From assembly GCF_007827365.1 (NCBI RefSeq), contig NZ_VISI01000002.1, forward strand, positions 1,431,001 through 1,495,000: a stretch of DNA of 64,000 nucleotides, read 5' to 3'. The DNA comes from Olleya sp. Hel_I_94. Its GTDB lineage: Bacteria; Bacteroidota; Bacteroidia; Flavobacteriales; Flavobacteriaceae. A program made the translations under genes and the position numbers. The notes beneath the pieces were generated by a model, which saw only the letters and a program-made list of their open reading frames with translations, did not search any database and was not told where the DNA came from. This document shows positions 57,450 through 64,000 of the stretch, one piece after another (position 1 is the first letter of the stretch; each line of letters opens with the position of its first letter).

Positions 57450-58580
57450 ATGGAACTAAAAAAACATATTACACTAAAACATCTTTTAATAGATAATAAA
57501 AAATTTATTGGACTACAATTTTACTCTGATAAGGTATTAAATTCTTTAATAAAAGAATTACCAGATTTACAATGGACAGATGAGTTTAATATGCATTATA
57601 TTGAAAACACAACAAATAACTTAAGTGCAATATTTGATTTATTTAGAGGTGTTGCCTGGATTAATGGAAAATACTTTTTTCAGACTACCAAATCCAAACA
57701 ATTGGATGAAGAATTTAATGTAGAATGGTACAGAAAACGAGACTTACCCAAAAACTTGAAGTCTTGTCCAGAATCTTATTTTCAAAAATTAGAATTAAAA
57801 AGATATGCTAATAACACAGTAAAATCCTACGTGTCTTGTTTTGAAAGATTTATAAATTACCATATAAACAAAGATATAGATAGCTTAAATGAAGTAGACA
57901 TACGCAACTACATACAGGTTTTGATACAGAGCAAACACTCCAACTCCTACATTAATCAAGCTATTAATAGTATAAAGTTTTATTACGAAGTTGTTTTAGG
58001 CATGCCAAACCGGTTTTATGCAATTGAAAGACCTAGGAAAGAAGCCAAACTACCAATTGTATTATCCAAAATAGAAGTTTTAAAACTTATTGAATCCACC
58101 AACAACATAAAACATAAATGTATTGTTAGCCTACTCTATTCGGCTGGATTACGTCGAAGCGAATTATTAAGTTTAAAACCAAAAGACATAGATAGTAAAC
58201 GTATGGTAATAAAAGTATTAGGATCCAAAGGAAATAAAGATCGTTACACGTTATTATCGCATAGTATTCTAAAAGATTTAAGACTGTATTTTAAGCAATA
58301 CCAACCAAAAGACTATCTATTTGAAGGTGTTAGAGGTCAAAAATATAATGCAAATAGTGTTTATAAAATTGTAAGTAATGCAGGAGCAAAAGCAGGAATA
58401 AAAGTTAAAGTTTCTCCGCATGTGCTAAGACATAGTTTTGCAACTCACCTCCTAGAATCTGGTACAGATTTAAGGTACATACAGATACTACTTGGCCATA
58501 ACTCGTCAAAAACCACAGAAATTTACACTCATGTTGCCACAAATACTTTTAACTTAATAAAAAATCCGTTAGATTTGTAG
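57450..58580 (+). CDS. Tyrosine recombinase, integron-integrase-like
   Basis: 376-residue tyrosine recombinase. An N-terminal extra domain (about 1-95, HITLKHLLIDNKKFIGLQF) precedes a SAM-like core-binding domain (about 107-190) and the catalytic domain. All six catalytic residues are found: R235 (AGLRRSE), K260 (GSKGNK), H324 and R327 (HVLRHS), H350 (LLGHNSS) and nucleophile Y359 (EIYTHV). The C-terminus (KNPLDL) resembles the RSPLDAL end of IntI1. The IntI-specific insertion expected between K260 and H324 is absent. It is transcribed toward three cassette-like units that start 44 bases after its stop. The ATG at 57450 is chosen over an upstream TTG. It could instead be a generic XerC/D-like enzyme. 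Confidence 0.88.
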   Translation: MELKKHITLKHLLIDNKKFIGLQFYSDKVLNSLIKELPDLQWTDEFNMHYIENTTNNLSAIFDLFRGVAWINGKYFFQTTKSKQLDEEFNVEWYRKRDLPKNLKSCPESYFQKLELKRYANNTVKSYVSCFERFINYHINKDIDSLNEVDIRNYIQVLIQSKHSNSYINQAINSIKFYYEVVLGMPNRFYAIERPRKEAKLPIVLSKIEVLKLIESTNNIKHKCIVSLLYSAGLRRSELLSLKPKDIDSKRMVIKVLGSKGNKDRYTLLSHSILKDLRLYFKQYQPKDYLFEGVRGQKYNANSVYKIVSNAGAKAGIKVKVSPHVLRHSFATHLLESGTDLRYIQILLGHNSSKTTEIYTHVATNTFNLIKNPLDL

Positions 58581-58593
58581 GTATATATAATAG

Positions 58594-58619
58594 GAATAAA
58601 CTCCCTTGGGAGTTTATTC
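58594..58619. other. Perfect hairpin between the recombinase and the first cassette
   Basis: GAATAAACTCCC (58594-58605) and GGGAGTTTATTC (58608-58619) are exact complements with a 2-base centre. The GTT of the first cassette follows 4 bases later. It could be a weak terminator for the recombinase (no proper T tract), or part of an attI-like attachment site. Confidence 0.7.
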
Positions 58620-58623
58620 AATT

Positions 58624-58633
58624 GTTGTAGCAC
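58624..58633. other. Candidate cassette boundary 1 (attI/first cassette junction)
   Basis: GTTGTAGCAC here is the exact reverse complement of GTGCTACAAC at 59249-59258, behind the first cassette gene. In integrons the first bases of a cassette match, inverted, the R'' box at its own 3' end, as seen here. Confidence 0.65.
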
Positions 58634-58642
58634 ATTTGAGAA

Positions 58643-59242
58643 ATGAGAATATTCACAACATTATTTTTGATTTTAACCTTTTTTTCTTGCCAAAACAACA
58701 AGAAATCAAGCGAACTGAATATTAATATAATGGACAACGATACTGTTTATAAAAAGACTTCGTCTTATTTAAACAGCAAATACAAATTAATTGACAAAAA
58801 AGGGAATGCTGGAGAAATAATATTAAGCGAAAACACAAATAAAAAAATCGGAGGAAATTTTAATTTCGGGATTATTGAAACCAATAAACCTCAAAACAAA
58901 GCTTTCATTTTTTTATCTGACCAAAAAATAAAGTTTGACTCTTTGCCCAAGCTTGATAATCCGACTGACTTCTCTCTGGTAAATGAATTCGAAAAATCGA
59001 CCTCTGAAAAGAATTTAAAATCAGTACTAATAGAAAAAGATGAGAATGCTTTGACCAATGCAAAGGCTTATAAATTAGTTTTTGCTTTTATAAAAAACCA
59101 AAAAGACACAATCGGATTTCAAAACACATATCAATTGGTTACTAACAATCGATTTTGTTCAATAAACTATATAAACGAATCGAGAGAAAACTATATTGAA
59201 ATGGAAAAAGAATTCGAGGGATTAGCATTAAGAATAAAATAA
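58643..59242 (+). CDS. Hypothetical lipoprotein, first cassette gene
   Basis: 199 residues with lipoprotein signal (FLILTFFSC, cysteine at residue 16). The mature part is hydrophilic (NNKKSSELNINIMDNDTVYK) with alternating beta and helix and no recognised motif or family. It is the only gene in the first cassette; its start is 9 bases after the boundary tag and its stop is 6 bases before the R'' box, so it fills the unit completely, as cassette genes do. No promoter of its own is seen. Confidence 0.72.
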   Translation: MRIFTTLFLILTFFSCQNNKKSSELNINIMDNDTVYKKTSSYLNSKYKLIDKKGNAGEIILSENTNKKIGGNFNFGIIETNKPQNKAFIFLSDQKIKFDSLPKLDNPTDFSLVNEFEKSTSEKNLKSVLIEKDENALTNAKAYKLVFAFIKNQKDTIGFQNTYQLVTNNRFCSINYINESRENYIEMEKEFEGLALRIK

Positions 59243-59248
59243 AAAAAC

Positions 59249-59387
59249 GTGCTACAACACCGGCTATAGTTCATTGCTTCTGACTTTCCTTGCGGAAAGT
59301 CCTCGCAAATTTGCTATCTTCGGTTTACGGCGGAAAATCCTCGCGGATTTTCACGCAACGAAACCATAGCCAAACACGTTAGCCACA
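59249..59387. repeat. attC-like site 1
   Basis: Order: R'' GTGCTACAAC (59249-59258), 3-base spacer, L'' GGCTATAGTTCATTGC (59262-59277), variable middle, L' GCAACGAAACCATAGCC (59355-59371), 6-base spacer, then GTTAGCCACA (59378-59387), which starts the next cassette. L'' and L' pair over their whole length with one unpaired extra base, like an extrahelical base of attC. The middle holds two further small hairpins (ACTTTCC/GGAAAGT and AAAATCC/GGATTTT). Confidence 0.75.
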
Positions 59388-59448
59388 ATTTACCCTTGAA
59401 TTCTATAAAGAGCATTCATTGCAATCATAATTTCACATTTACATTTTT

Positions 59449-59468
59449 TTGACACACTTATGTGTCAA
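59449..59468. promoter_or_regulatory. Candidate TetR operator
   Basis: TTGACACA-CTTA-TGTGTCAA, a perfect 8-bp inverted repeat with a 4-base centre, overlapping the -33 region of the promoter at 59476. A further half site TGTGTCAA lies at 59493-59500, directly before the TetR ATG. Consistent with autorepression. Confidence 0.65.
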
Positions 59469-59475
59469 TTTTTAA

Positions 59476-59483
59476 TATATTTG
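59476..59483 (+). promoter_or_regulatory. Predicted -7 box for the TetR-led cassette genes
   Basis: TATATTTG fits TAnnTTTG, 17 bases before the TetR ATG and 7 bases after the palindrome. The palindrome's TTG is 24 bases from the box. Confidence 0.6.
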
Positions 59484-59500
59484 TCACGTATTTGTGTCAA

Positions 59501-60049
59501 ATGAAGAAATCAAAAGAGCATATAATTGATATAGCGATTGTTTTATTGGAAAAAAACATTTTCGTGTCACTAGATGAAATTGCCTTAGAATCAGGTATTA
59601 GCAGAAGAACTTTACATCGTTACTTTGACGGAAAAGAAGAACTCATTATTCAAGTTTTCGAAACTTTATTAAACGAATATACCGAAGGCTTCATTGATAT
59701 TATTTGGGCAGAAATGAATACAGTTGACACAATAAAAAGTCTATTGAAATATGATTTAAAATGGTATTCTAGATATACAACTATTTATAATTTGTATGAA
59801 ACGCATAGCGATAAATATAAATTTGAAGAAGATTTGATTAAGAAAATCGAACAAGATTACATTTCTATTTTCACAACATTTCTAAGTGAGTATGACTGCA
59901 ATCCTTTACTTAATTCTCAGTGGTTAGAGGCTTATTACACTAGTATTTTAAAACTAGGAGGAAATCAAATAAAAACTGGTTTAGATAAAGAAACAGTTTT
60001 TAAGACAATATGGGAAATATTTTGGAATGGTATAATCTCAAAAAACTAA
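59501..60049 (+). CDS. TetR/AcrR family transcriptional regulator
   Basis: 182 residues from the ATG at 59501 (MKKSKEHIIDIAIVLLEKN); an upstream GTG would place 13 extra residues inside the promoter. The helix-turn-helix is VSLDEIALESGISRRTLHRYFDGKEEL (key parts IALESGISRRTLHRYF, about 25-40). The C-terminal ligand/dimer domain has no recognised signature. The TTGACACA palindrome just upstream suggests autorepression. First gene of the second cassette, followed by the suffix-domain, beta-barrel and cyclase genes, all on the same strand and closely spaced. Confidence 0.88.
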   Translation: MKKSKEHIIDIAIVLLEKNIFVSLDEIALESGISRRTLHRYFDGKEELIIQVFETLLNEYTEGFIDIIWAEMNTVDTIKSLLKYDLKWYSRYTTIYNLYETHSDKYKFEEDLIKKIEQDYISIFTTFLSEYDCNPLLNSQWLEAYYTSILKLGGNQIKTGLDKETVFKTIWEIFWNGIISKN

Positions 60050-60063
60050 GAAATAAAGAAAAA

Positions 60064-60381
60064 ATGAATAATAATACCAATAACACAGAATCTAAAAAAA
60101 ATATTACTCGAACAACTGGATACACGTTATTAACTATCTCATTTTTTTCTTGGATTTGTGTTTTTGTGGTTCCTTTTTTAGAATTAAAAAACCACAAACT
60201 AATAATCACTTCAATATTAATAATTATAGGTGAGATAACTTTTTACGCTTCAATTGCCTTATTAGGTAAACAGATAATAAAAAAATTAAAAGGATTTTTA
60301 AAAATATTTATAAATAAACATCAACACAGAAATGAAATTAATAACAAAAGTATCGGTAATGAAGAAACCCAAAAACATTAA
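60064..60381 (+). CDS. Transporter-suffix-domain membrane protein
   Basis: 105 residues from the ATG at 60064. Two membrane helices (TLLTISFFSWICVFVVPFLE and LIITSILIIIGEITFYASIA) followed by LLGKQIIKKLKGFLK match the short transporter-suffix domain found alone or at the end of RND-type transporters. It lies 14 bases after the TetR gene, and its end overlaps the beta-barrel gene by 23 bases. A role with the TetR regulator in envelope transport is inference. Confidence 0.75.
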   Translation: MNNNTNNTESKKNITRTTGYTLLTISFFSWICVFVVPFLELKNHKLIITSILIIIGEITFYASIALLGKQIIKKLKGFLKIFINKHQHRNEINNKSIGNEETQKH

Positions 60382-60934
60382 TTATTATTTAATCTTAACA
60401 TTCCTATTCACAATAAGTAGTCAATTATATTCCCAAAACATTGATAAAAAAAATGTTTTCGGTATTATGGCAGGAGGTAATATATCTAATATTTCTAACT
60501 ATGAAGGAAAATCATCATTAGGTTTTTCAGGTGGTTTATATTGGGAATGGAAATTTTCAAACAAATTCTCACTTCAATCAAATATTCTTTATTCTCAAAG
60601 AGGGGAAAATAAAGATGGTAACTTTTCCGATTTAAAACTAGACTACATCAATATGCCGATATTACTTAAATACTATGCTACAGAGAAACTTGGAGTAATG
60701 ACTGGTGTATATATGGATTTCTTATTAAATGTTGATAGTTCCAACTTTGACAAAGATGATTTTAAGCAGACTGATTTAGGTATACCTATTGGTGTTAGCT
60801 ATGATTTATCAAAAAATCTTCAATTAGGGTTATCTTATAATATTGGGCTTACAGATATTCTAGATAACAACCCAAATTCAGATAAACTAACAAATAATTG
60901 GGGTAATTTTTCTTTAACTTATATTTTTAAATAA
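60359..60934 (+). CDS. Outer membrane beta-barrel protein
   Basis: 191 residues from the ATG at 60359, which gives a clean signal peptide (LILTFLFTISSQLYSQ). A barrel of the PorT/OMP_b-brl type follows: GIMAGGNISNIS, FSGGLYWEWKFSNKFSLQSN, ILYSQRGENKDG, YINMPILLKYYATEKLGVMT, and a final aromatic FSLTYIFK. It is probably a small outer membrane protein. It lies in the TetR-led cassette set and overlaps the suffix-domain gene by 23 bases. Confidence 0.82.
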   Translation: MKKPKNINYYLILTFLFTISSQLYSQNIDKKNVFGIMAGGNISNISNYEGKSSLGFSGGLYWEWKFSNKFSLQSNILYSQRGENKDGNFSDLKLDYINMPILLKYYATEKLGVMTGVYMDFLLNVDSSNFDKDDFKQTDLGIPIGVSYDLSKNLQLGLSYNIGLTDILDNNPNSDKLTNNWGNFSLTYIFK

Positions 60935-60979
60935 TTAAGTAGTAAATAACCTTGTTTATATTTAATTACTACTTCAATA

Positions 60980-62059
60980 ATGCGAGAAGTTAGAAAATAC
61001 CTCAATAAACTATTTATATCATTATTGTTTTGGATAATTGCAATGGTATTATATACTGTTTTTAGATATTACGGTATATCTGAAGAACTTGTTACTTATG
61101 CCAATTTTGATAATGATTTTTCTATGATAGTAAATATAAAACACTCTATTTTTTTTGGTGTTTTATTTGGGGTATTATATTCTTTTATCAACTATTATTT
61201 CGAAAGAAAAATTTTCGCTAACCTACCTATGTGGGTTATGTTTGTTCTAGAGTCAATTTTATTCATAATAATTTTTACTCTTACTATTATTATTTTTGGG
61301 TTTCAAGTTGATAATGACAACGATAATCTTGACATTTTAGCCTATCTAAATTGGTGGTTTTCAACTAAATTATTTTGGGCTGCGTTATTATATGCTAGTG
61401 TTGTATCAATGGGATTGTCGTTTATAAATATAGCTACACAACGATTAGGGCATAAGAATTTTTATAATATACTTATAGGAAAATACAGGCAACCAAAAGA
61501 AGAATACAGGGTTTTTATGTTTATAGATTTAAAGTCTTCTACTTCAATTGCCGAAGAGCTTGGGCATTTAAAGTATAGTAAACTAATACAAGATTGCTTT
61601 TCTGATTTAAATGCATTATTAAGAAAACATAATGCAGAAATATTTCAATATGTAGGAGATGAAGCAGTAATTATTTGGAATTTTCAAAACGGTATACAAA
61701 ACAACAATTGTTTAAAAATGTTTTTTGCCTTTATTCAAAGCTTAGAATATAAATCAGAATACTATAAATCTAACTATAATATTATTCCAGAATTTAAGGC
61801 TGGTATCCACGCGGGTAAGTTGATGGTTGCCGAAGTAGGTACAATAAAGAAAGAAATTGCATATCACGGTGATGTTATCAATACTACGGCACGCATTCAA
61901 TCTAAATGTAACGAATTTGAACAACAACTTATTATCTCTCAAGATTTATATAAACAGTTTGATAATTTAGACCACTATAAGTTCAAAAACTTAGGTTCTT
62001 TATTATTGAAAGGAAAGAAAATGGAAACAAATTTAATTGGAGTAAAAAACTGTGGCTAA
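60980..62059 (+). CDS. Membrane-bound class III adenylate/guanylate cyclase
   Basis: 359 residues: four N-terminal membrane helices (about 13-150) and a C-terminal class III catalytic domain (about 175-355). Metal aspartates are in FMFIDLKSSTS and YVGDEAVIIW. The transition-state Asn and Arg occur in GDVINTTARIQ. Substrate specificity (ATP or GTP) is not obvious. Its stop codon lies inside the R'' box of the second attC-like site, the tight packing usual for cassette genes. No effector protein is adjacent; the window has no evident CRP-type receptor. Confidence 0.88.
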   Translation: MREVRKYLNKLFISLLFWIIAMVLYTVFRYYGISEELVTYANFDNDFSMIVNIKHSIFFGVLFGVLYSFINYYFERKIFANLPMWVMFVLESILFIIIFTLTIIIFGFQVDNDNDNLDILAYLNWWFSTKLFWAALLYASVVSMGLSFINIATQRLGHKNFYNILIGKYRQPKEEYRVFMFIDLKSSTSIAEELGHLKYSKLIQDCFSDLNALLRKHNAEIFQYVGDEAVIIWNFQNGIQNNNCLKMFFAFIQSLEYKSEYYKSNYNIIPEFKAGIHAGKLMVAEVGTIKKEIAYHGDVINTTARIQSKCNEFEQQLIISQDLYKQFDNLDHYKFKNLGSLLLKGKKMETNLIGVKNCG

Positions 62060-62254
62060 CAACGTGTATAGCTCATTGCTATTCAGTTGATTAAACCAAA
62101 TTTAAAGCATATTTGGAAAGTCGCCAAATTTTTAAATTTGACGATTTCCAATAAAAAAGATAAATAGTAAAATTTAAAAATCTGGCTTGTGCCTCAACCG
62201 AAAATTAATCGCTAATTTGCACGCAACGAGCCATACACAAGACCGTTGTGTGTA
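62051..62254. repeat. attC-like site 2
   Basis: R'' TGTGGCTAAC (62051-62060) is the exact inverse of GTTAGCCACA at the start of this cassette (59378-59387). Then a 3-base spacer, L'' GTGTATAGCTCATTGC (62064-62079), a longer variable middle, L' GCAACGAGCCATACAC (62223-62238, 14 of 16 pairs with L''), a 6-base spacer, and GTTGTGTGTA (62245-62254), the start of the third cassette. Spacer lengths equal those of site 1. Confidence 0.75.
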
Positions 62255-62295
62255 ATGTAAAAATCGTGCTAAAATTGAACATTTGAACTAAAAAA

Positions 62296-62381
62296 GCCAA
62301 CGCTCAAACAGCACATTTATTTTTTTGCCGACACGAAAGCCAACGCTGAAAAAAATAAAAGAGCTGTTTCTTGCCAACGCT
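62296..62381 (+). repeat. Three direct GCCAACGCT repeats before the restriction-modification gene
   Basis: GCCAACGCT at 62296-62304, 62339-62347 and 62373-62381, with AAACAGC/GCTGTTT inverted between them. Located in the 5' region of the third cassette. Function unknown; 62255-62420 has no other feature and no clear -7 box. Confidence 0.6.
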
Positions 62382-62420
62382 CGGAATAATATTAAATTTG
62401 AGAAAAAAGATTAAAATTTT

Positions 62421-64000
62421 ATGAGCTTATTTCAGAACTCTGTTCTAAACAAATATTTAAAAGGATTGGAGTCCGAAAAAGTTAATCAAGCTTACGAACG
62501 ATTTACGAGCCATTTCCATAATCCGACCATTCAGGAAAATATTCGAAATTCCAAAGAGGAACAATATCAAGGCGAATTTCTGATTGACCTTTTTGTAAAC
62601 GTATTTGAATACGTTAAGAATCCGACACCAGATTTTAATCTTACAACGGAATTAAAAAACATAAAAGGCTCAAAAAAGACAGATGGAGCAATTTTAAAAG
62701 GCGAAAAAGCACTTGCGGTAATTGAACTGAAAGGAACAAACACAACCGATTTAAGCAAAGTAGAAACTCAAGCATTTGGATATAAAAACAACCAACCTGG
62801 TTGTAATTATGTAATTACTTCCAACTTTGAGAAGTTGCGTTTTTACATTGACAATGCAGTAGATTTTGAAGAATTTAATTTATTCCAATTAACGAAAGAA
62901 CGTTTTGATATCCTTTGGCTTTGCCTTTCGTCTGAATATCTTTTAAAAGACATTCCTAAAAAAATTAAGGACGAATCCTTAACGCAAGAGGAAAAAATCA
63001 CAAAAGAACTTTACAAAGACTACGCATCTTTCAGAAATGAAGTTTTTGATAGCATTCAAAAGGAAAATCCGCAATACGACAAACTAACCTTATTCAAGAA
63101 AACGCAAAAATTACTTGACCGTTTTTTATTCATCTTCTTTGCAGAAGACAGGTTATTACTTCCACCTAATTCAATTAGGTCTATAGTAAACCAATGGACA
63201 GATTTAAAAGATAAATACGATGAGTATTTTCCTTTGTACGACCGTTTTCAAAAGTATTTCGGTTATATGAATTCTGGTTATAAAGGACAACAACACGATA
63301 TTTTTGCTTACAATGGAGGTTTGTTTGCACCAGACGAGATTTTAGACAACATCAAAATTAACGATGAATTGCTTTACAAACACACAGTTAATTTAAGCAA
63401 TTACGATTTTGAAAGTGAAGTAAGTGTAAATATTCTTGGTCATATATTTGAACATTCTCTAAACGACATTGACGAAATCCAAGCAGAAATTCAAGGAGTT
63501 TCAACTGAACAAAGCAAAACAAAACGAAAAAAAGATGGTGTTTTTTACACGCCAAAATACATTACCAAATACATTGTAGATAATACTGTTGGCAAACTTT
63601 GTGAGGAAAAGAAAATTGAACTTGACATACAAGAAGCTGAATACGAAAAAGAACGTAAAGGAAGAAAGAAAGCAACACTAAAAAAATTAACTCAAAAATT
63701 AGAAGATTATAGAAAATGGCTATTACAAATTACCATTTGCGACCCAGCTTGTGGTAGTGGAGCTTTTCTAAATCAAGCTTTGGAGTTTTTAATTGCAGAA
63801 CATCAATATATTGACGAATTACAAGCCAAACTCTTTGGAGACGCAATGGTTTTAAGTGAAGTTGAAAATGCAATTTTAGAAAATAATATTTATGGTGTTG
63901 ACATCAATGATGAAAGTGTAGAAATTGCAAAACTATCACTTTGGTTAAGAACAGCACAAAAAGACAGAAAACTAACTTCATTAAACAATAATATTAAATG
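62421..64000 (+). CDS. Type IIG-like restriction/N6-adenine methyltransferase (partial, runs off the window)
   Basis: Open from the ATG at 62421 to the window end (526 codons, no stop). The N-terminal PD-(D/E)xK nuclease site is visible as D88 (KKTDGAIL) and E102-x-K104 (AVIELKG). A helical connector follows (FLFIFFAEDRLLLP), and then GVFYTPKYITKYIVDN, typical for Eco57I/type IIG enzymes. The SAM motif is CDPACGSGAFL (440-450). The catalytic NPPY would lie past the edge. Such single-chain enzymes cut and methylate DNA using one target domain. It is the first gene of the third cassette-like unit. Confidence 0.85.
   Translation, partial: MSLFQNSVLNKYLKGLESEKVNQAYERFTSHFHNPTIQENIRNSKEEQYQGEFLIDLFVNVFEYVKNPTPDFNLTTELKNIKGSKKTDGAILKGEKALAVIELKGTNTTDLSKVETQAFGYKNNQPGCNYVITSNFEKLRFYIDNAVDFEEFNLFQLTKERFDILWLCLSSEYLLKDIPKKIKDESLTQEEKITKELYKDYASFRNEVFDSIQKENPQYDKLTLFKKTQKLLDRFLFIFFAEDRLLLPPNSIRSIVNQWTDLKDKYDEYFPLYDRFQKYFGYMNSGYKGQQHDIFAYNGGLFAPDEILDNIKINDELLYKHTVNLSNYDFESEVSVNILGHIFEHSLNDIDEIQAEIQGVSTEQSKTKRKKDGVFYTPKYITKYIVDNTVGKLCEEKKIELDIQEAEYEKERKGRKKATLKKLTQKLEDYRKWLLQITICDPACGSGAFLNQALEFLIAEHQYIDELQAKLFGDAMVLSEVENAILENNIYGVDINDESVEIAKLSLWLRTAQKDRKLTSLNNNIK

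Follow-up and report, generated by a model that had tools for sequence, protein, structure and literature searches.

The window considered here comprises 64,000 nt from the genome of the marine bacterium Olleya sp. Hel_I_94 (C2:1431001-1495000; 3.56 Mb in two contigs, C1 and C2), and an array of cassettes opens at its right-hand end, where the window contains the gene for a tyrosine recombinase, an attI-like site, two complete cassettes and part of a third (Table 1). A first-pass annotation of this stretch had proposed a complete tyrosine recombinase followed by three units, with all genes on one strand and with two large palindromes of a single internal plan between them. The open reading frame (ORF) of the recombinase is indeed complete, and both palindromes conform to the arrangement tag-AAC-3 nt-L′′...L′-6 nt-GTT. 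In all three units the main ORFs lie on the forward strand, with two cassettes whole and the third running past the end of the window; three short reverse ORFs (62–69 aa) overlap them and were not counted as genes.

Table 1. Features at the start of the cassette array, in window coordinates
Feature	Position	Strand
Tyrosine recombinase, 376 aa, complete ORF; proposed integrase of the array	57450..58580	+
attI palindrome AATAAACTCCCTTGGGAGTTTATT, 5 nt ahead of the attI GTT	58595..58618	+
attI crossover triplet GTT	58624..58626	+
Cassette 1, GTT to GTT	58624..59380	+
Cassette 1 ORF, 199 aa	58643..59242	+
attC-like site 1 (palindrome 1), AAC...GTT, 125 nt	59256..59380	+
Cassette 2, GTT to GTT, start tag AGCCACA, four ORFs	59378..62247	+
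TetR-family regulator ORF, cassette 2	59504..60049	+
Transporter-suffix-domain membrane protein ORF (NF033684), cassette 2	60064..60381	+
Outer-membrane beta-barrel protein ORF, cassette 2	60332..60934	+
Adenylate/guanylate cyclase-domain ORF, cassette 2	60980..62059	+
attC-like site 2 (palindrome 2), 190 nt	62058..62247	+
Cassette 3 start; cassette end beyond the window at C2:1496860 (window coordinate 65860)	62245..64000	+
Cassette 3 ORF, PglX/MmeI-like DNA methylase, incomplete at window end	62421..64000	+

Cassette boundaries and the attI site

Further boundaries had been anticipated to the right of the two palindromes, and the covariance model R1, which was built from the bottom strand of 27 array sites rather than from sites 1 and 2 alone, returned 105 sites of this form within the 280 kb of the genome searched, all of them (105/105) in one orientation. 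On contig C2 these fall into a block of 48 sites (40.5 kb) running from the recombinase onward and a block of 20 past a 22.7-kb gap, whilst contig C1 carries blocks of 4, 3 and 30. Site ends are highly uniform, with AAC at the start in 103/105 and GTT at the end in 102/105. A search of the same genome with the L′-box pattern gave 59 forward and 5 reverse matches, compared with 11 and 9, respectively, for a reversed-pattern control.

In integrons, the bases outside the AAC and GTT of a site come from different cassettes, and therefore complementarity is expected across a cassette and not across a site. Within cassette 1, the start tag GTAGCAC that follows the attI GTT is met again at position 59256 as GTGCTAC-AAC, the complement of GTT plus tag. 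Amongst 100 consecutive site pairs (three neighbour pairs more than 6.6 kb apart were omitted), start and end tags are complementary at five or more of six positions in 96, and at all six in 89, as against 9/100 (4 at all six) for the two flanks of the same site and a mean of 11.3, with a maximum of 22, for shuffles. Early site lists that were based on patterns lacked some site types, and displayed perfect tags in 31/58. Tag positions 1–7 match in 83–99 % of pairs and position 9 in 95 %, whilst position 8 never matches, an A.C on the top strand, equivalent to T.G on the bottom, occurring there in 92/100. The same test in named relatives yields 72/80 across cassettes versus 8/80 for own flanks (shuffled mean 4.9, maximum 14). 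For five further arrays it is weaker, since some sites were missed, with counts of 8/11 (L187), 3/6 (L189), 1/5 (L188), 5/8 (L200) and 3/5 (L201).

That the palindromes might be static repeats between ordinary genes, i.e. elements akin to repetitive extragenic palindromes (REP) or miniature inverted-repeat transposable elements (MITE), or terminators, would agree with hairpins that stand between co-directional genes and carry stable apical hairpins. The tag test contradicts such a view, because a static palindrome would pair its own two flanks, and two near-identical cassette pairs, described below, stop at GTT. Static repeats are thus ruled out by the cross-cassette comparison, and we give them practically no credence.

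The attI-like GTT ends 46 nt 3′ of the recombinase stop codon. A comparison of related strains, as had been suggested by the first-pass annotation, reveals that Olleya marilimosa is identical to the window over the 58 nt up to this GTT (97 % over 200 nt), and that its first-cassette DNA differs from the attI GTT onward: the two sequences share one base immediately beyond it, followed by 38 % identity over the next 50 nt. Insertion at attI predicts exactly such a break. With regard to more distant relatives, the attI tag was refound in 33 of 79 named loci around homologues of the recombinase, and in 27 of those 33 the GTT ends 42–50 nt past the stop codon. A GTT behind the gene with a 7 nt tag that recurs as its complement plus AAC is found in 30 of the 44 loci with 1.5 kb or more of downstream sequence, as opposed to 3/44 for a reversed-tag control. 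The palindrome carried by attI sets these sites apart from those of canonical integrons, and lies 4–6 nt before the GTT in 30 of 32 sites, comprising the window and 31 of the 33 tag-refound loci (L128 and L161, with GTT 186 and 94 nt past the stop, respectively, were excluded). Its sequence is lineage-specific and its position is kept, with at least 8/10 paired in 28/32, versus 14 % of shuffles; it may be a binding site, a terminator or both. At locus L200, the tag of the first detected site lies 1244 nt from the recombinase.

A second array, at C1:307701-337049 (L050, L051), stands behind a 5′-truncated copy of the recombinase (residues 248–376). It possesses an intact attI, with a tag matching the end tag of its first site, and would require the C2 recombinase in trans. 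The 22.7-kb gap between the C2 blocks (C2:1530720-1553411) contains large ORFs mainly on the opposite strand.

The sites as folded strands

The first-pass annotation held that the sites depart from the usual attC consensus, and they prove to differ in kind, through strand-specific G.T wobbles and an L stem that in most sites has no bulge. Extrahelical bases in the L stem, as expected of canonical attC, are missing from these. Amongst 64 pattern-found sites with tags, a set independent of R1, 63 show more favourable folding of the bottom strand than of the top (means of −24.4 and −20.5 kcal/mol, respectively). For the 98 distinct sites of the Olleya genome (alignment A2) and 121 sites from relatives (alignment A3), 97.0 % of cells in the 16-pair L stem are paired in both sets alike, with covariation scores of 0.440 (0.137 shuffled) and 0.571 (0.146 shuffled), respectively. 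Bottom-type G.T wobbles in this stem greatly exceed top-type, by 262 to 8 here and 269 to 9 in named relatives, and do so in 98/98 and 120/121 individual sites. One L-stem position is G.T in 119 of the 120 relatives' sites with letters there, and another in 97/120. The arms of the stem are equal in length in 90/98 and 93/121 sites, a minority having unequal arms. The spacers between R and L are themselves asymmetric, with that beside the bottom-strand AAC being 6 or 5 nt in 98/98 and 116/121, and the other always 3 nt. A search of Rfam gave no match to the sites.

Canonical integrons of the same phylum served as a control. Of 395 Bacteroidota genomes, 105 have a match to TIGR02249 at or above the cut-off of that model, nearly all of these genomes being labelled as outside the class of the window, and at 1e-60 the IntI model matches 107/395, with none of the 41 same-family genomes (0/41) amongst them. 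From seven IntI loci, 44 hairpins and then 11 tag-confirmed sites were obtained, the latter deriving from three loci. In these 11 sites, one arm accounts for 33 bulged bases and the other for 1, and no site is bulge-free (0/11); bottom-type wobbles total 5 and top-type 0, whilst the bottom strand is the better-folding one in only 2/11. When the same aligner is applied to the present sites, wobbles number 398 bottom-type versus 2 top-type (98 sites) and 335 versus 14 (118 sites), whilst 46/98 and 41/118 are bulge-free and bulged bases occur on both arms (17 and 46 in the 98 sites, 38 and 71 in the 118). A neutral hairpin scan had confirmed 6 sites in the scanned part of genome G000 and the comparison therefore used model-defined sites; it is partly independent of R1. 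None of ten IntI loci with short flanks (L175–L184) was matched by R1 at E values of 1 or below. Its match in one IntI-bearing genome (L198, G124) appears by eye to be a site of the present type that has degenerated.

The recombinase and its linkage to the sites

The recombinase consists of an N-terminal domain of ~78 aa, a SAM-like core-binding domain (110–184) and a catalytic domain (206–364), and its closest named counterpart, from O. marilimosa CAM030, is 96 % identical. The first-pass label of 'IntI/Xer-type' stands insofar as this is a tyrosine recombinase, and falls with regard to IntI. Whilst the protein scores 231.3 bits against NF040815 (cut-off 220), this decides nothing, as the name of that family also includes 'integron integrase'; homologues are already named 'site-specific tyrosine recombinase/integron integrase' by NCBI, which is the name of the NF040815 model. 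Against TIGR02249 it scores 195.7 bits in two stretches, below the cut-off of 265. The IntI-specific insert (I2 region) is absent, leaving the protein a net ~40 residues short of IntI4 (2a3v). At this position 9–10 residues are present in 39/39 aligned recombinases of the array family, 50 in nine IntI and 15–17 in Xer. In a tree for which the root is not resolved (rows L006 and L136 were excluded), the nine canonical IntI group together (99/98) to the exclusion of all array recombinases. One protein labelled as IntI (L170) groups with Xer in this tree, and its label is wrong.

The nearest solved structure is XerA, which, like XerC and XerD, acts in chromosome dimer resolution at dif. In addition to this structural proximity, the recombinase resembles these enzymes in exceeding the NF040815 cut-off, and differs from them in having an extra N-terminal domain and linked cassette arrays. 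The genome also encodes separate Xer-like proteins of 296 and 308 aa (L003 and L001, respectively).

By its insert, its extrahelical bases and the tree, this is not a canonical IntI-type integron. It could nevertheless be an ordinary one in origin, in which IntI lost the I2 insert secondarily and both enzyme and sites are derived from canonical forms. Such a history would fit the shared plan of attI, AAC and GTT ends, bottom-strand bias and compact, co-oriented cassettes, as well as the presence of Vibrio IntI4 amongst the best structural matches and a recombinase C-terminus (..PLD) that is IntI-like by eye; furthermore, the fork uniting Xer and array recombinases against IntI is unsettled (83/50). 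Conversely, array recombinases are missing from the IntI clade, the short insert position is without exception in the array family, and the design of the sites is unlike that of the 11 IntI-linked sites from the same phylum. We consider secondary loss to be rather unlikely. It is quite possible, albeit a tentative proposal, that a second kind of integron is represented, with a XerA-like lineage of Bacteroidota having evolved folded-site capture independently of IntI and I2. In this lineage the strand would be read from near-invariant G.T wobbles in a fully paired stem and not from flipped-out bases, with the co-directional form perhaps aided by the N-terminal domain.

A confident structure prediction was obtained for this domain (window 57450–57683), for which fold searches returned weak matches only, to the N-terminal (damage-recognition) domain of XPB and to the DNA-binding HARP domain. 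The domain of one relative also gives a weak match to DUF7397, and a sequence search of PDB produced nothing below E 0.77. Recombinases of the same family that lack it (272–306 aa) are found in genomes G010, G096 and G104, and such proteins (L189/G010, L188/G096, L187/G104 and L196/G232) are encoded divergently from arrays with this same type of site. In this second layout, GTT and the tag of the first site lie 104, 213 and 101 nt beyond the 5′ end of the recombinase gene in G010, G096 and G232, respectively; G232 has one site only, and no attI tag was found in G104. A search near these genes for a split-off copy of the N-terminal domain returned nothing convincing (best E 0.16). Because relatives without the domain stand beside arrays of the same site type, it is not needed for these sites, and the idea that it replaces I2 in all systems is unsupported. 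The IntI insert is absent from both layouts.

At the 79 named loci, R1 finds 123 sites, of which 122 are co-oriented with the recombinase and 117 lie downstream of it (6 upstream), and a site is present at 34 of the 44 loci having at least 1.5 kb downstream. In this way, the arrays that the first-pass annotation had expected next to recombinase homologues elsewhere are seen in other Flavobacteriaceae. Within a set of 60 genomes, 40 are R1-positive, including 10/10 of the genus (the present one included), 25/27 of other genera in the family and 5/23 of other families in the order; Flavobacteriaceae commonly carry such sites. Across the 395 Bacteroidota genomes, with eight candidates scored per genome, at least 68 are R1-positive. 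The recombinase occurs in 43/68 of these and in 70/327 of the others (p 5e-11), whilst the corresponding counts for an IntI-model match at 1e-60 are 20/68 and 87/327 (p 0.65).

A different recombinase, be it the host XerC/XerD or an IntI acting in trans, might alternatively move the cassettes, with the linked gene as a passenger. This would suit the 25 of 68 site genomes that have arrays or single sites and in which no homologue was detected at 1e-42, and the C1 array, which has only a truncated copy. It sits poorly with the downstream position of almost all sites, with the regular distance of the attI GTT behind the gene and with the lack of any IntI match at 1e-60 amongst the 41 same-family genomes. 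In addition, all 14 genomes in which eight of eight candidates were confirmed have the recombinase, and none of them is amongst the IntI matches. We regard a passenger role as very improbable.

Cassette turnover and the integron-like reading

Evidence of movement comes from cassettes that recur. One cassette, of 1673 bp, occurs on both C2 and C1 at 99.9 % identity, and the sequence shared outside it amounts to 2 nt upstream (AC, which is common ahead of GTT) and 0 nt beyond the GTT at its downstream end. Two C1 positions carry identical copies of an 844-bp cassette, with boundaries as sharp as those of the former pair, and a 1062-bp cassette is 100 % identical in O. marilimosa, where it stands in other surroundings with unrelated flanks. 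Neither of the outcomes named beforehand as contrary to an integron, i.e. a dearth of further sites or fixed synteny, was encountered. The first-pass proposal of a flavobacterial integron accordingly gains support from boundaries, turnover and linkage alike.

Comparison of sequences brings out cassette units, GTT junctions, an attI, turnover, a conserved hairpin and an asymmetry of strands, and from it we infer recombination. The locus very likely works like an integron, and with high probability it belongs to a sedentary chromosomal integron-like system of Olleya, the cassettes of which would be moved by the linked, non-IntI recombinase. Short cassettes, each with one folded site at its end, would be excised, presumably as circular intermediates, and then inserted at attI by recombination at GTT. 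Linkage and co-occurrence point to the linked recombinase as the catalyst. The substrate would be the bottom strand of the cassette site, extruded as a hairpin, as covariation and strand bias suggest, and the choice of strand may be set by the conserved G.T wobbles together with the unequal R–L spacers (6 or 5 versus 3 nt).

A number of observations weigh against this integron-like reading. Tags fail the test in 4/100 pairs here and in 8/80 in named relatives, and of the 44 loci with 1.5 kb or more of downstream sequence, 14 did not yield the attI tag and 10 yielded no R1 site. Amongst the Bacteroidota genomes, 70/113 that bear the recombinase are without an R1 site (again with eight candidates scored per genome), whilst of the 25/68 site genomes without a recombinase at 1e-42, 17 lack IntI also. 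With regard to turnover, the match between copies of a recurrent 559-bp cassette continues into the flanks, for 145 nt on the upstream and 13 nt on the downstream side, the cassettes next to it belonging to one type; over 837 recurrences (ungapped), of which 816 are of a short non-coding cassette kind, the contrast is less sharp, with identities of 0.92 and 0.59 within the two ends and of 0.52 and 0.40 beyond them. As for the folded sites, the difference between top and bottom strands depends on counting G.T as a pair, and the 12 pairs of A3 that changed on both sides are equalled or exceeded in 138/500 shuffles. Moreover, A2 and A3 consist of sites that a bottom-strand model had located and aligned, and such a model favours its own pairs.

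In common with canonical chromosomal integrons, of which superintegrons are examples, the Olleya system has compact, co-oriented cassettes, an attI beside the recombinase, AAC...GTT ends, complementary tags specific to each cassette and a bottom-strand asymmetry. It differs from them in its recombinase, which is without the IntI insert and falls outside the clade of IntI, and in sites that mostly have no extrahelical L-stem base and in which G.T wobbles mark the strand. Strand recognition by IntI is tied to extrahelical bases docked by I2 (PMC7790495, PMC3053210), and gain of the I2 helix, which docks these bases, is presented as the route from double- to single-strand recombination (PMC7790495). 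Here the enzyme has no I2 and most sites offer no base to dock, and nonetheless the strands are asymmetric and cassettes turn over; the requirements of folded-site recombination are therefore directly testable, and there may be a second way of capturing genes through folded DNA.

Integrons of Treponema, in which intI is transcribed toward attI, are treated as intI integrons (PMC3607928). The Olleya recombinase differs from these in lacking the insert, its sites are different, and in G010, G096 and G104 the genes of the 272–306 aa relatives stand in divergent orientation to their arrays. Archaeal integrons similarly lie outside the best-studied taxa, and are described as carrying bacterial-type attC together with an IntI that has the additional domain (PMC9668308). 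Bacteroidota are already listed as an integron-bearing phylum (PMC8618304). Detection of IntI by IntegronFinder 2.0 relies on the IntI-specific domain (PMC9668308), and this tool reported one complete integron in Bacteroidetes proper, in Salinibacter ruber M1, with others in Chlorobi and Ignavibacteriae (PMC9024848). Amongst the listed titles and beginnings of abstracts on flavobacterial and Bacteroidota integrons, covering no preprints and few subscription papers, no such system was noticed. The present findings point to a large reservoir of cassettes in Flavobacteriaceae.

Considering the content of the arrays, 101 cassettes could be delimited, with a median length of 804 bp. Their longest ORF (at least 60 aa) is on the forward strand in 74 and on the reverse strand in one, with none in 26; the sole reverse example, of 407 aa, is at C1:319894-321890. 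In the 74 forward cassettes, the start codon lies a median of 25.5 nt past the GTT, and the stop codon a median of 14 nt before the last 125 nt. Five of 20 random cassette ORFs of at least 90 aa match Pfam at 1e-4, to Sel1, AAA_21, DUF1963, DUF2071 and Ion_trans.

A cassette of 351–360 bp without a 60-aa ORF is present in 24 copies that are 95 % conserved, at C2:1498605-1556326 and C1:319537-329862 (e.g. L009:14083-14436), and alternates with coding cassettes along a long stretch of C2. The copies searched have no match in Rfam, and it is a guess that this is a promoter or selfish cassette. Within the window, the ORF of cassette 1 has no Pfam or NCBIfam match at 0.001. The stop codon of the cyclase-domain ORF in cassette 2 sits at the start of attC-like site 2, and the large PglX/MmeI-like methylase inside cassette 3 is a probable restriction or defence gene.

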